DNA of 35,043 nt, taken from the IMG/VR virus record IMGVR_UViG_3300036715_000150, positions 1 through 35,043 of that record; one strand, given 5' to 3'. Shown here piece after piece: positions 2,769-9,567 of the stretch. The first letter of the stretch is position 1, and every line of letters starts with the position of its first letter. Source of the DNA: a virus. Made by a program: the position numbers and the translations under genes. Below the pieces are notes generated by a model, which was given only the letters and a program-made list of their open reading frames with translations, searched no databases and had not been told where the DNA came from.

Positions 2769-3311
2769 ATGCCTTATAAATCAAAAGTAAATTGGAAAGA
2801 AGAAATTACTAAGATTAAAGAATGTGGTTCTATGGGTATGACTATGGCAACTCTAGCAAGACGTTATGGAATCTCTAGACAGCGTATGAAGCAAATTATA
2901 GATAAATATATTCCAGATTGGAATCATGGCTATGGTCATTCTGTCAACCGTAGAATTAAAGCTGAAAAATCCAATGCAAAATGGGGAGCTAAAAATGAAA
3001 CTGAGTTATATCAAAAACAAAGAGATAAATTCAGATCAAAGAAAGCTAATGCAAAACGTATTGGGTGGGAATGGACCATAGAATTTGGGGATGTTATCTG
3101 GAATGCTAATTGTCCAATTTTGGGATTAGAGTTGGACTATTTCTCAGAGGTTACCAAGGAAAATAGCCCTAGTTTTGATCAAATATATGCTGGTAAAGGT
3201 TATGTTAAAGGTAATGTTCAAGTGATTTCTTGGAGGGCTAACAGGATTAAAAATGATGGTACATCAGAAGAACATCGAAAGATTGCTGACTATCTTGACA
3301 GCATAGTTTAG
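2769..3311 (+). CDS. HNH-like (His-Me finger type) endonuclease with N-terminal HTH
   Basis: A 180-residue protein with good ribosome binding (AAGGAG, then ATG). Residues about 20-45 form a helix-turn-helix (ATLARRYGISRQRMKQII) for DNA binding. The C-terminal half has the pattern of phage free-standing nucleases related to the HNH/endonuclease VII superfamily: CPILGLELDYF, then SFDQIYAGKGYVKGNVQVIS and a terminal RANRIKNDG segment. In this family the usual aspartate-arginine pair of the form SxDR is here SFDQ, so activity is uncertain. It sits alone between primase and helicase with its own promoter, as expected of a homing-type intruder. Function is inferred from family pattern only. Confidence 0.7.
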   Translation: MPYKSKVNWKEEITKIKECGSMGMTMATLARRYGISRQRMKQIIDKYIPDWNHGYGHSVNRRIKAEKSNAKWGAKNETELYQKQRDKFRSKKANAKRIGWEWTIEFGDVIWNANCPILGLELDYFSEVTKENSPSFDQIYAGKGYVKGNVQVISWRANRIKNDGTSEEHRKIADYLDSIV

Positions 3312-4923: not shown

Positions 4924-5988
4924 ATGAATGTTCTAGCTCTGGATTCCGAGACAACAACTTGGAACAAGGGGAATCCTTACGACCAACGTAATAAGTTAGT
5001 TTGCTACAGTGGCGCCAATGATCTTGGAGCATGGGCAGAGATGTGGAATACATATTCTAGTACTAATCTTGTAGAAATACTTGATGATTATGATCTTATA
5101 GTAGGATTCAACTTCAAGTTTGACGCTCACTGGTTTAACAAACATGGAATTAAGTTTAAAAAGGTATGGGATGTTCAAATTGCTGAGTTTATTATTTCAC
5201 GGCAAACAAACAGATTCCCTAGCCTTAATGAGACTTGTATAAAATACGGAGTACCTGTCAAAGAAGATATAGTTAAGACACAGTATTGGGACAAAGGAAT
5301 TAACACTAACGAAATACCTTGGGAGATACTTGAGGCTTATGCTTCCCATGATGCTCATATTACACTTCTTTGTTACTATGCTCAAATCAAACTAATGACT
5401 CCTGCCGAGATTAGACTATGTCAGCTTCAATGTGAAGACATGCTTATTCTTATGGAAATGGAAGCCAATGGTTTACCTTATGATGAAGAACTTTGCCAAG
5501 TAAGAGCAAAGGAAATTGATGACAAAATATCAACGCTTACACGAGAACTCTCCAACATTTACCCCAACGTTCCTATTAACTTTGGTTCTAATGATCACCT
5601 GTCTGCCTTTCTATATGGTGGCATTGTTAGGGAAGATTCCAAAGAATTTGTCGGAGTTTATAAAACAGGGCAACGTATAGGAGAACCTAAATATAAAAAC
5701 GTAATAATTGAGCACCGTCTTCCAAGACTTTATACTCCACTCAAAGGTAGTGAAATGGCTAAAGAAGGTAACTTTTCTACAGATGAGGGAACTCTCCGTA
5801 AACTTAAAGGTAAGAAAGGGGTAATTGAAAAGATTCTTGAACTAAGTAAATGTGAGAAACTAAATGGTACTTATTATAACGGTCTTGTTAAACTCCGTAA
5901 GGAAATGAATTGGGAACCTAATGTACTTCATGGACAGTTCAACCAAACTACCGCGATTTCTGGAAGGCTCTCTTCTAGTAAGCCTTAA
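4924..5988 (+). CDS. family A DNA polymerase, exon 1 (3'-5' exonuclease and start of polymerase domain)
   Basis: The start at 4924 follows GAGGAG. The 3'-5' proofreading domain is intact: Exo I ALDSETTT (D7, E9), Exo II NFKFDAHW (D67), Exo III YASHD (Y139, D143). The thumb region follows, and the reading frame ends at the polymerase motif SGRLSSSKP, with a TAA at once (5986-5988). In relatives this motif runs straight into NLQN, which reappears at 6680. The stop is therefore the first codon of a group I intron and exon 1 ends at 5985. After splicing this polypeptide would gain 18 residues plus a final Asp, then stop at 6739, still short of motif A. Confidence 0.92.
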   Translation: MNVLALDSETTTWNKGNPYDQRNKLVCYSGANDLGAWAEMWNTYSSTNLVEILDDYDLIVGFNFKFDAHWFNKHGIKFKKVWDVQIAEFIISRQTNRFPSLNETCIKYGVPVKEDIVKTQYWDKGINTNEIPWEILEAYASHDAHITLLCYYAQIKLMTPAEIRLCQLQCEDMLILMEMEANGLPYDEELCQVRAKEIDDKISTLTRELSNIYPNVPINFGSNDHLSAFLYGGIVREDSKEFVGVYKTGQRIGEPKYKNVIIEHRLPRLYTPLKGSEMAKEGNFSTDEGTLRKLKGKKGVIEKILELSKCEKLNGTYYNGLVKLRKEMNWEPNVLHGQFNQTTAISGRLSSSKP

Positions 5989-6679
5989 ATAATAGGGCTT
6001 TTTAAACCATATTAATTCAGGGGAAGTCCAGATCGGATAATCCTGAGCCAAGCCAATCAATCTACCATAAGAGGTACATATGAATATTAATTACTTATAC
6101 GAAAATACAGATTTAACTTTACAACAAATAGCAGATACTCTTGGATTAAAATTAACTTATGTCTGGAAATATGTTAAAAATACTTATTCCAGTTCTTATA
6201 GAAAAGCACGAAAAGTTAATTCATATAGCAAGAGTAAAATAGGAGACAAGAATCCTATGTCAGGAAAAACCTCAGAAAAACACCATAATTATATAGGTGA
6301 TATTTCTGATGGTAAGGGCTATTTGATGCGAATAAAACCAGAATGGTATACAGGTAGAGCAGGAAGTAAGCATATTTTTGTACACCATATCGTTATTTGT
6401 GAACATCTAGGTATCTACTCTATTCCTAAAGGATGGGTAGTTCATCATTGTGATTTTAATCCTCATAATAATGATATAAGTAATTTAGTATTATTGAAAA
6501 TGGGGGATCATATGAAACTCCATAGATATTTGGAAGGTGCAACGACTATCTCGAAAGAGAGTACACTCAAATGGGTGGAAACATATGGCACACCTTGGTG
6601 TGATGATATAGTCTGCTCTATACAGGAATGTATAGCTGCGAAAGCGGGAGAAGAGTGATGATCTTCTCTGAACAAAAGG
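5986..6679 (+). ncRNA. group I self-splicing intron in the DNA polymerase gene
   Basis: The exon end AAGCCT pairs with GGGCTT inside the intron (6004-6009 region), leaving a T-G wobble at the splice site as in a P1 helix. The conserved P/Q/R core is visible: TTCAGG paired with CCTGA in TCCTGAGCCAAGCC (6041-6054 region). Downstream are P7 GACTA (6544-6548) with TAGTC (6609-6613), a P8-like hairpin CACAC-CTTG-GTGTG (6589-6602), and a P9-like hairpin CTATAC/GTATAG (6618-6635). The intron ends in G at 6679, and joining 5985 to 6680 restores the conserved KP-NLQN of family A polymerases in frame. It is 694 nt and carries an HNH gene between P6 and P7. Exact base pairs need folding software; the intron itself is well supported. 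Confidence 0.88.
6080..6658 (+). CDS. intron-encoded HNH homing endonuclease
   Basis: A 192-residue protein starting just after GAGGT in the intron. The N terminus carries a helix-turn-helix (LQQIADTLGLKLTYVWKYV), then a NUMOD3-like DNA-binding motif (GDKNPMSGK ... HHNY). The HNH_3-type nuclease domain contains HHIVICEHL, then WVVHHCDFNPHNNDISNL, where the paired His and two Asn form the metal site. The last 40 or so residues are encoded by the intron's own P7-P9 core, so the reading frame runs through the ribozyme. Such enzymes cut intron-less alleles to spread the intron. It resembles the polymerase introns with HNH genes known from SPO1-type phages. Confidence 0.88.
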   Translation: MNINYLYENTDLTLQQIADTLGLKLTYVWKYVKNTYSSSYRKARKVNSYSKSKIGDKNPMSGKTSEKHHNYIGDISDGKGYLMRIKPEWYTGRAGSKHIFVHHIVICEHLGIYSIPKGWVVHHCDFNPHNNDISNLVLLKMGDHMKLHRYLEGATTISKESTLKWVETYGTPWCDDIVCSIQECIAAKAGEE

Positions 6680-6739
6680 AATCTCCAAAATTTCGCCAGC
6701 GATCTTCAAGATATATTTATCTCGAAATATAATGACTAA
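6680..6739 (+). CDS. DNA polymerase exon 2 (short)
   Basis: Nineteen codons, NLQNFASDLQDIFISKYND, followed by TAA at 6737-6739. NLQN is the conserved continuation of the SSSKP motif at the end of exon 1, and the segment ends just before where family A motif A should appear. Motif A is instead found at 6926. The exon's last codons overlap the ATG (6732) of the following small gene. Expected spliced product: 373 residues. Confidence 0.8.
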   Translation, partial: NLQNFASDLQDIFISKYND

Positions 6740-6926
6740 AGAACTAGAACACCTACAGTATAATGACGTTCTTACTGACCTAGCTTCTTCTATGGAAACT
6801 GTAGGAGCTAGGAAATTCCTACAAGATTTTAAGTCTTGTTACCCACGACATTTTGAGGAAATTCAAATTCAAATCACACGGCTAGATCAACGTACACCTT
6901 GTAAACTATTAACAAAGGATGAATAA
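6732..6926 (+). CDS. hypothetical protein lodged between the two polymerase parts
   Basis: A 64-residue acidic, helical protein beginning MTKELEHLQYNDVLTDL and containing SSMETVGARKFLQDFKS, a pattern I associate with a small conserved phage protein of unknown role. It starts inside the last codons of polymerase exon 2 and ends in a TAATG overlap with the polymerase C-terminal gene. It has no ribosome binding site of its own, so translation is probably coupled to exon 2. It is too short for an intron or intein and shows no nuclease motif. Confidence 0.7.
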   Translation: MTKELEHLQYNDVLTDLASSMETVGARKFLQDFKSCYPRHFEEIQIQITRLDQRTPCKLLTKDE

Positions 6927-7639
6927 TGCTTTTGCAATGTGACGCAAGCCAATTAGAGTGGCGGGTTGCATTAGAACTTAGTAATGAAATAGTAGGGATA
7001 CAAGAGATTATAAATGGTGAGGATACTCATACCAACAATCAAAGTGCTTTTGAATTACCTTCACGACTTATTGCAAAGATTTTCTTATTTCGTACAATCT
7101 TCCGTGGTAGTGGATGGGCTTTTGCTAACGATGCTAATTTTCAGCATGTATCAAACAATCCGAAGTTCTGGGATTCTATGAATGAAAAGTTCTATGCCAA
7201 ATATAAATACCTAGATAAACAGCATAAATTATGGATGGCTTTAGTTTCCGCAGGAAAGGACATTACAGGGCCGTTAGGACGTTCTTGGCACTTGGAGATG
7301 AAGAGGGATTATAAAGGTGAATTAAAGCTCCCTATCAACCAATTAGTCAATCTTCCTGTTCAAGGAACTGGCGCTGATATTATGACTATTGCTCGTATTT
7401 CTGCATACAAGCGTATTAAGAAAGCAGGTATTCCTTGTGATTTCATTTCTACTGTTCATGACTCAATTGTTGTAGACACACAGAAGCGTTATTTAAGAGC
7501 ACTTGCCAATATTTTTGAACAAGTATTTAAAGACCTTCCTATGAATATCAAAGCTATATTTGGGTACGACTGGACTTGTCCCATGGCTTGTGAATGTAAG
7601 TATGGACCTAATATGAAAGACATGAAAAAGTTCAAATAA
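6926..7639 (+). CDS. family A DNA polymerase, C-terminal catalytic fragment
   Basis: This 237-residue product begins directly at motif A, MLLQCDASQLEWR (catalytic Asp6). It then has the O-helix motif B around R47 and K51 (RLIAKIFLFRTIFRG) and motif C, STVHDSIV (His178-Asp179). A Phe sits where T7 polymerase has Tyr526, as in E. coli Pol I. AAGGA seven bases before the ATG gives it independent initiation. Together with the 373-residue spliced N-terminal part the total is about 610 residues, similar to single-chain phage relatives, so nothing appears lost. The two polypeptides would have to assemble into one enzyme. Single-chain production by a second splice is unlikely given the 186-nt gap and the coding content between them. 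Confidence 0.9.
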   Translation: MLLQCDASQLEWRVALELSNEIVGIQEIINGEDTHTNNQSAFELPSRLIAKIFLFRTIFRGSGWAFANDANFQHVSNNPKFWDSMNEKFYAKYKYLDKQHKLWMALVSAGKDITGPLGRSWHLEMKRDYKGELKLPINQLVNLPVQGTGADIMTIARISAYKRIKKAGIPCDFISTVHDSIVVDTQKRYLRALANIFEQVFKDLPMNIKAIFGYDWTCPMACECKYGPNMKDMKKFK

Positions 7640-8494: not shown

Positions 8495-9185
8495 CGGGGA
8501 TATTATTGCTTACCGCTGCGCGGCCAGTTGTCAGAAACAAGGTGTGACAATTGAGCCAGTTGAGGTAGCGTTATATCGTGTAGATGACCTAATGCGTCGT
8601 ATCATACATGAAACAAGTGCTGGGTATTTTAACACTTATTTATCTGGAGAAAACAACTTCAGGTACAAATACAATCCTGAATATAAAGCCAATCGCAAAG
8701 ATGTTGTAAAACCAGAATGGTTGGGACAATGTAAACAGCATCTTATAGATAAATGGGATGCATCTATATCAGAAGGATGTGAAGCCGATGACTCAATGGC
8801 TATAGCACAAACGGTATTAAAAGATGAATCTAGTATTTGTACTATTGACAAGGACTTACTCCAAGTACCGGGTAGACATTACAACTTTGTTAAATCCGAG
8901 TTCCAATATATATCTCCTATTGAAGGAGTATTCAACTTTTACTGGCAATTCATTATGGGTGACAAAGCTGATAATATTGTGGGCTTTGATGGTCTTTCGC
9001 GTCAAACAGTTCCGAAGAAGTTTGAAGGTATGTACTCGGAGATGCAAGAACTAGCTAGTAATGAAATTGATATTTTTAACTACGTCCGTGAATTGTACAA
9101 CGATGATGAACGTCTTTTGATGAATGGTATTTGTCTTTGGATGCAACGAGAGACAGATCAAATTTGGAGGTTTCCAACTGGCTAA
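8475..9185 (+). CDS. 5'-3' exonuclease, T7 gp6/FEN-like
   Basis: A 236-residue 5' nuclease of the PIN/FEN fold. Acidic metal ligands appear at the N terminus (SLIDGDIIAY), in CEADDSMAIA, in CTIDKDLLQVPG, and in FIMGDKADNIVGFDG, which is the helix-hairpin-helix-like region after the last metal-binding Asp. These enzymes remove RNA primers and degrade host DNA in T7-like replication. AAAGGAG lies 10 bases before the ATG. The length is short for T7 gp6 (300 residues) but usual for reduced phage members. Confidence 0.88.
   Translation: MLTSLIDGDIIAYRCAASCQKQGVTIEPVEVALYRVDDLMRRIIHETSAGYFNTYLSGENNFRYKYNPEYKANRKDVVKPEWLGQCKQHLIDKWDASISEGCEADDSMAIAQTVLKDESSICTIDKDLLQVPGRHYNFVKSEFQYISPIEGVFNFYWQFIMGDKADNIVGFDGLSRQTVPKKFEGMYSEMQELASNEIDIFNYVRELYNDDERLLMNGICLWMQRETDQIWRFPTG
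9166..9180 (+). promoter_or_regulatory. ribosome binding site with CUG start for HNH gene
   Basis: GGAGG at 9166-9170, seven bases, then CTG at 9178 in frame with the HNH domain. The product would open (M)AKRKTWNGGNW, which matches the usual opening of this phage HNH family. The only upstream ATG (9124) adds 18 residues read from inside the 5' nuclease gene and has no ribosome binding site. Confidence 0.6.
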
Positions 9186-9567
9186 ACGTAAAACATGGAA
9201 TGGTGGTAATTGGACAGAGGGGCGTTTTAATTCTTTCATAACTTCAACCTTACGTGCTGGCGCTAGACGCTGGCAACCTAAATATGACACTCTCAACTCA
9301 AGCAAGACAGAAAAAAAGATTAATCCAAAAACAGGTAGGATGGCCCAGCATTACGAATGTGGGCTATGTCACAACGAATTCACGCAAAAAGATATGGAAG
9401 TTGATCACATTAAACCAGTGGTTGATCCGTCTAAAGGCTTCATATCGTGGGACATATTCATAGATCGTCTTTTCTGTGAAGCAGATAATCTACAGGCGAT
9501 ATGTAAATCGTGCCATCTAGTCAAAACTAAAAAAGAAAAAAAAGAAAGAACTGATGCAAATAAATAA
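9178..9567 (+). CDS. HNH endonuclease
   Basis: A 129-residue HNH protein. Two zinc-binding CxxC pairs (CGLCHN and CKSCH) flank the catalytic segment MEVDHIKPVVDP, with the later CEADNLQAICKSCH giving the Asn of the HNH motif. The N terminus (AKRKTWNGG ... RFNSFI) is that of a family common in T7-like phages. The start is assigned to CTG at 9178 by its GGAGG. It overlaps the 5' nuclease stop by 8 nt and the following small gene by 14 nt, and so is fully built into the operon. It could be a homing enzyme or a phage DNA-processing nuclease. Confidence 0.85.
   Translation: MAKRKTWNGGNWTEGRFNSFITSTLRAGARRWQPKYDTLNSSKTEKKINPKTGRMAQHYECGLCHNEFTQKDMEVDHIKPVVDPSKGFISWDIFIDRLFCEADNLQAICKSCHLVKTKKEKKERTDANK

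Follow-up and report, generated by a model that had tools for sequence, protein, structure and literature searches.

A phage family A DNA polymerase gene divided directly ahead of motif A and carrying a group I intron in its first half

The virus record IMGVR_UViG_3300036715_000150 from IMG/VR, 35,043 bases in length and analysed here as a whole (the window), contains a family A DNA polymerase gene whose conserved core holds a group I intron, a stop codon and a small gene, raising the question of whether the enzyme is made as one chain or as two. All of the elements at this locus lie on the plus strand. Exon 1 of the first gene (the N-half) spans 4924..5985 and its 354 codons encode the 3′-5′ exonuclease and the thumb and start of the palm (PF01612 and the N-terminal part of PF00476), ending in RLSSSKP at 5985 with a TAA, formed by the first bases of the intron, directly 3′. 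The intron of 694 nucleotides (nt) at 5986..6679 contains an open reading frame (ORF) for an HNH homing endonuclease of 192 amino acids (6080..6658; PF13392 HNH_3, PHROG 7545) and is followed by exon 2 (6680..6739), which reads NLQNFASDLQDIFISKYND plus a stop and is contiguous with exon 1 in intron-less relatives. A small conserved gene of 64 amino acids, here called S (6732..6926), overlaps the end of exon 2; it has homologues in the gaps of other loci and is under purifying selection. The second gene (the C-half, 6926..7639) encodes the palm and fingers with motifs A, B and C (the C-terminal part of PF00476) in 237 amino acids and has its own ATG, with an AAGGA ribosome binding site (6915..6919) six bases upstream that was identified from the sequence and a comparison of start regions. 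A first-pass annotation of the window had given the end of exon 1, the 64-codon ORF and the ATG at 6926 with its AAGGA as we find them; it had also placed the stop of exon 2 correctly at 6737-6739 (TAA) but counted 20 codons for that exon, where there are 19 and the TAA. The two products of 373 and 237 residues add to 610, in line with the approximately 610 it had proposed. The observation of a polymerase in two pieces with an intron is confirmed.

The two pieces together retain everything expected of the enzyme family. Alignments, including a PDB profile alignment, located all of the catalytic motifs that had been claimed, with Exo I (D7/E9), Exo II (D67) and Exo III (Y141/D145, all in alignment numbering) on the N-half and motif A (D6), motif B (R47/K51/F55) and motif C (H178/D179) on the C-half, D6 of the C-half corresponding to D705 of E. 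coli Pol I. The Pfam profile PF00476 is divided between the chains, its first third on the N-half and profile positions 154-379 on the C-half; the N-half ends just past NLQN and in the profile alignment the two chains omit no conserved block. AlphaFold2 models compared using Foldseek gave a Pol I fold for each half separately. The C-half model (predicted local distance difference test, pLDDT, 95.6; predicted template modelling score, pTM, 0.90) matches the palm and fingers of the Bst, Klenow, Taq and T7 polymerases, while the N-half, modelled with the chain of the intron-less locus L003 (pLDDT 92.0), matches exonuclease and thumb.

A set of 63 distinct loci in which both halves are present was drawn from IMG/VR and annotated phages. 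Setting aside ICP2, PS3, L075 (not classifiable) and three fused outgroups left 57 loci, the window included, and the split point is identical in the window and the 56 others. The N-half ends after NLQN..D/E-x-x-x-x-F and the C-half starts M-hh-x-x-D-A-x-x-LE, with an unclear C-half start in L021 and a short insert just after the start in ten or so loci. Once near-copies were removed, 47 of 50 full-length polymerases were split and the three fused ones were outgroups. A tree of 52 polymerases unites the 45 split rows in a single clade with an SH-aLRT (Shimodaira-Hasegawa-like approximate likelihood ratio test) value of 100, outside of which lie the fused polymerases of L076-L078 (671-721 amino acids), CRP-235 and RHEph03. 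The split arose once in this clade and, since dozens of related phages share the exact cut, it is an old and stable arrangement rather than damage.

These data very probably reflect a family A polymerase made of two chains and cut directly ahead of motif A, with halves that are translated separately and an intron that is unrelated to the cut. The earlier proposal of two chains meeting just before motif A is supported by independent starts across the clade and by the lack of an intron core or an intein in the gap. The start codon of the C-halves is ATG, GTG or TTG and in most cases lies shortly downstream of an in-frame stop, and the distance from the N-half stop to the C-half start is 186 nt in the window and ranges from -11 (L105), -1 (L020) and 0 (L059) up to 3,598 nt (L023), so that in L105, L020 and L059 the halves overlap or abut and yet stay separate. 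The shortest split is that of L059, where at 5998-6001 a TAA is followed by the in-frame ATG of the C-half with nothing between them.

One alternative is that the gap is a second intron, or that the parts are trans-spliced, giving one full-length chain. This was suggested for the Methylophilales phages MEP401/402, whose authors offered an intron as a possible reason for their split (PMC10580990), and it would agree with halves that adjoin without a polymerase residue missing and with the frequency of group I introns in phage polymerases. We nevertheless consider it very unlikely, as the halves remain separate even where the gap is nil or negative, the gap has no Rfam intron match, its contents are unrelated among many loci, and the C-halves have their own start codons with stops close upstream. 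It is about equally unlikely that the two chains act independently in different roles, one as a free exonuclease/thumb protein and the other as a free palm/fingers protein. Each half is predicted to fold well alone, but each is without parts needed for templated synthesis, both keep their core motifs, the window ORFs that were examined include no other polymerase gene, and the halves co-diverge. Distances between N-halves and between C-halves were correlated with a Mantel r of 0.91 for all rows, 0.87 for the split clade and 0.86 for the core, a level reached in 0 of 2000 shuffles, none of which exceeded 0.39.

Slightly less likely again is frameshifting, readthrough or bypassing past the N-half stop that yields some full-length polymerase. 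In L059 simple readthrough would indeed fuse the halves; in the window, however, the exon 2 frame meets further stops within the gap, and the frame relation between the halves varies freely across the clade. A split intein ligating the chains after translation is known from an arrangement with an HNH gene between polymerase parts, proposed for polymerase B of phage MIJ3 (PMC6892783), but has next to no probability here, as there is no room for one: the N-half ends ..FISKYND, the C-half begins M-LLQCDAS, and the joined sequence matches fused homologues with no extra residues at either end. A pseudogene or an assembly error is just as improbable: an essential gene that contains a stop and an insert looks damaged at first sight, but the same split recurs in isolated phages and in more than 50 loci, and purifying selection is strong. 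Assembly error is unlikely because L001, a contig from another IMG/VR data set, is identical to the window in all 6,403 shared bases, and chance is excluded by conservation in the more than 50 loci together with nonsynonymous to synonymous rate ratios (dN/dS, window versus L002) of 0.08 for exon 1 and 0.04 for the C-half. None of 19,951 N-half codons is an internal stop.

Some points weigh against a two-chain enzyme of single origin. For no clade member did we find data on splicing, co-purification or activity, the structure predictions are of single unfused chains, and the tree was built by a quick search and has some long branches among the outgroups. Model confidence in the N-half is lowest at its end (pLDDT about 72-85), which would also fit a missing partner. 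By analogy with other split phage enzymes the halves may be expected to assemble and to act as a polymerase: gp43A and gp43B, the two parts of the split polymerase of Aeromonas phage 25, can be co-purified and show activity, and the complex formed by the split NrdA of phage Aeh1 is likewise active (PMC2988022). Like the polymerase described here, gp43A/43B (of Aeromonas phages 25 and 44RR) and NrdA are essential two-chain enzymes associated with homing endonucleases, although they belong to an unrelated polymerase family or are another enzyme altogether, and the split of the window is fixed in its clade with a gap that is usually without an endonuclease.

In the mechanism we propose, one ancestral event would have cut the gene of a family A phage polymerase in two at the loop that immediately precedes the motif A strand, with each half translated from its own start. 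The N-half would provide the exonuclease, the thumb and part of the palm and the C-half the fingers, the remaining part of the palm and the aspartates of motifs A and C, both chains presumably folding together non-covalently into one working polymerase. The N-half gene of the window additionally carries an HNH group I intron, at a site also used in N4-like phage polymerases, that would have to splice to give the 373-residue N-half, and the gap between the genes serves as a landing site where small genes and homing endonucleases settle.

The 694-nt group I intron annotated after exon 1 was borne out by several lines of evidence. Its P1 pairs AAGCCU with AGGGCUU, placing a U.G at the 5′ splice site, and the terminal G is present. 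The Rfam model RF00028 matched the intron with 34.9 bits (E 5e-7), short of its gathering score of 50, and at the gathering threshold Rfam gave no match in the window; because the intron scores below this curated cut-off, it had to be compared with relatives. Aligned with five phage introns (L002, L043, PhAPEC7, Shigella phage B2 and Providencia phage PS3), it has 54 predicted pairs, 22 of them compensatory, which together with the sub-threshold RF00028 match indicates a conserved catalytic core. The sequence RLSSSKPNLQNF or its equivalent is uninterrupted in intron-less relatives (including L004-L008, L010-L012 and L016) and, since these read through the site, both intron borders are fixed. 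Self-splicing is predicted from these features and excision would be needed for the 373-residue N-half, which without splicing would end at RLSSSKP. The HNH ORF within the intron is 83 % identical between the window and L002, with a dN/dS of 0.08.

Only the window, L002 and L043 carry the intron within the split clade, all members of which are split, and the intron therefore cannot explain the split. The first-pass annotation had pointed to the split lying next to a live intron; the two are unrelated. HNH group I introns with the same conserved core occupy the identical polymerase site, P^N before NLQN or its equivalent, in the Schitoviridae phages PhAPEC7 and Shigella phage B2, and in Providencia phage PS3 the polymerase intron lies 6 nt further on than that of the window. 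The intron-bearing polymerases of Schitoviridae and T7-like phages are otherwise single chains, unlike the two-chain polymerase of the window. In a megablast search against phages, similarity was restricted to the intron and HNH ORF and did not extend to the polymerase. The intron is of a known kind in a new host gene.

A split at this position had been thought unusual but has a precedent: the core observation has been known in kind since a 2023 report on MEP401/402 (Zobellviridae), in which these phages and most of their metagenomic relatives were described as having a split polymerase with a small ORF between the parts (PMC10580990). As in the window, an ORF with the exonuclease and the N-terminal part of PF00476 is followed by one with the C-terminal part; the halves are homologous to those of the window at about 40 % identity and the split point is shared, although the N-half of MEP401/402 has no intron. 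The window is divided between the NLQN segment and motif A, the junction also found in L022 and L024, in one clade on the tree. S gave no tblastn match to L022 and L024 at E 0.001, the resemblance being one of position and not of detectable sequence relationship, and a small ORF like ORF14 of MEP401 is a variable rather than a defining feature, L020 and L059 being without one. The closest isolated relative is Alcaligenes phage vB_Af_QDWS535 (49 % identity for the N-half and 52 % for the C-half), which likewise has two genes annotated as family A polymerase, but these share one base (TAATG) and have neither a gap gene nor an intron.

The Vibrio phages ICP2 and VP41s3 (L025, L111 and L112) also have the polymerase in two ORFs, split right after NLQN, with an additional ORF between the two in some ICP2 isolates. 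Like that of the window this split falls between NLQN and motif A, but in both phages it lies approximately 14 residues earlier than in the window clade. On the tree ICP2 and VP41s3 group with the fused RHEph03, and theirs is apparently a second, independent event.

The gap of the window holds only S, with no endonuclease gene between the halves. Alignment of 28 rows defines S as a family whose members have about 62 residues. Its gene usually stands first or last in the gap and frequently overlaps the N-half at its end. S is constrained (dN 0.32 with dS saturated, window versus L002) and had no match in Pfam, PHROG or PADLOC and no convincing match in PDB. As S is absent from L020, L059 and L105 it is not needed to hold the split. 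Other gaps contain a metallophosphoesterase-like gene, a methyltransferase or small uncharacterized proteins. Endonucleases of the Endo VII/F-CphI type are present in the gaps of L003/L004, L048, L097 and L107, with a remnant in L035, and an HNH type in that of L158. An Endo VII-like nuclease gene in L003 (5515-6001, the same in L004) lies between a truncated first and a full second copy of the C-half start, which resembles a scar left by homing. The HNH gene of L158 (1580-2089), unrelated to the Endo VII-like one, ends directly at a C-half start with a 7-nt insert in motif A.

Motif A of the window is uninterrupted and reads GACGCAAGCCAATTAGAGTGG; in approximately 15 related contigs its codons are broken by insertions of 1-10 nt (+1, +2, +6, +7, +8 and +10). 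With the inserted bases in brackets, these read CTT[T]GAG in L044 and L009, CTT[TA]GAG in L045, L074 and L159-L161, CTT[TAGCCC]GAR in L048 and L097, CTT[TAGCTT]GAA in L156, CAG[TAGCGG]CTA in L035, CTT[TAGACCC]GAA in L183 and GAA[ATACGAC]TGG in L158; L043 and L062 have TAGCTACGTA or TAGCTACGAT between GAA and TGG, L003/L004 an 8-nt insert and L021 one extra A. Most inserts place an in-frame stop directly after the last normal codon (CUU UGA, CUU UAG, CUU UAG CUU, CAG UAG or GAA UAG), and the only two internal stops in the C-halves examined are both at motif A. The codons 3′ of the inserts are open and conserved, with dN/dS of about 0.10-0.16 (upper bounds where dS is saturated), and seven insert-bearing contigs tested had no second copy of the C-half. 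Pattern scans for such insertions also returned L117, L119 and L120, which have no relation to polymerases and were rejected as arising by chance.

Homing endonucleases of two unrelated types lie directly upstream in several of the insert loci. A nuclease or its remnant was present in the gap of 4 of 9 insert loci versus about 1 of 50 others (Fisher p 0.0013; our own count, which predates the finding of L156-L183). Take-off and landing codons share at least 2 identical bases in 5 of 7 alleles (binomial p 0.0015, with ambiguous insert borders), a hint of peptidyl-tRNA re-pairing at the inserts. It is conceivable, if somewhat short of probable, that the inserts are mobile nuclease-resistance cassettes skipped by the ribosome through frameshifting or hopping, a miniature, repeated form of the gene 60 bypass. 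The T4 topoisomerase genes 39/60 with mobA combine a split gene, a nuclease, a small ORF and a 50-nt bypass (PMC3014915). Relatives of the window resemble gene 60 in that their downstream ORF has, close to its start, an insertion containing a stop, which the window does not have, and they differ in its length of 1-10 nt compared with 50.

Longer inserts of approximately 750-800 nt occur after C-half residue 56 in L060, L064 and L068 and after residue 148 in L016, L070, L071 and L074. Those of L060 and L016 match RF00028 and the L016 insert has an HNH ORF; these inserts, near motif B and at NLPVQG, are likely group I introns.

Relative to the open-access literature (subscription journals may hold prior reports), what is new is the one fixed split point with one origin and the evidence against an intron in the gap, as well as the conservation of S as a family and the occurrence of a group I intron within a split polymerase, in its N-half. 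The motif A insertions in relatives are a further addition and suggest possible ribosomal bypassing. A replicative family A polymerase can, on the two-chain reading, persist over evolutionary time as two chains cut beside a catalytic aspartate, an arrangement reached once in a widespread phage clade and apparently again in ICP2-like phages. It would offer a natural two-part polymerase for biochemistry and protein engineering. Split and introns, formerly mixed up, can now be told apart, and because the clade has intron-like inserts at three polymerase sites and homing endonucleases at the split it is a test bed for mobile elements reshaping essential genes, including the apparent recoding at motif A.

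Elsewhere in the window, the upstream primase was considered as a further broken gene and rejected, its reading frame being continuous; this frame, at about 1900-2738, begins without an obvious ATG. A free-standing Endo VII/F-CphI-like nuclease gene lies between the primase and the helicase (2769-3311); in L003 an orthologue with 64 % identity precedes the polymerase. A second HNH gene (9124-9567) overlaps the end of the 5′-3′ exonuclease gene.

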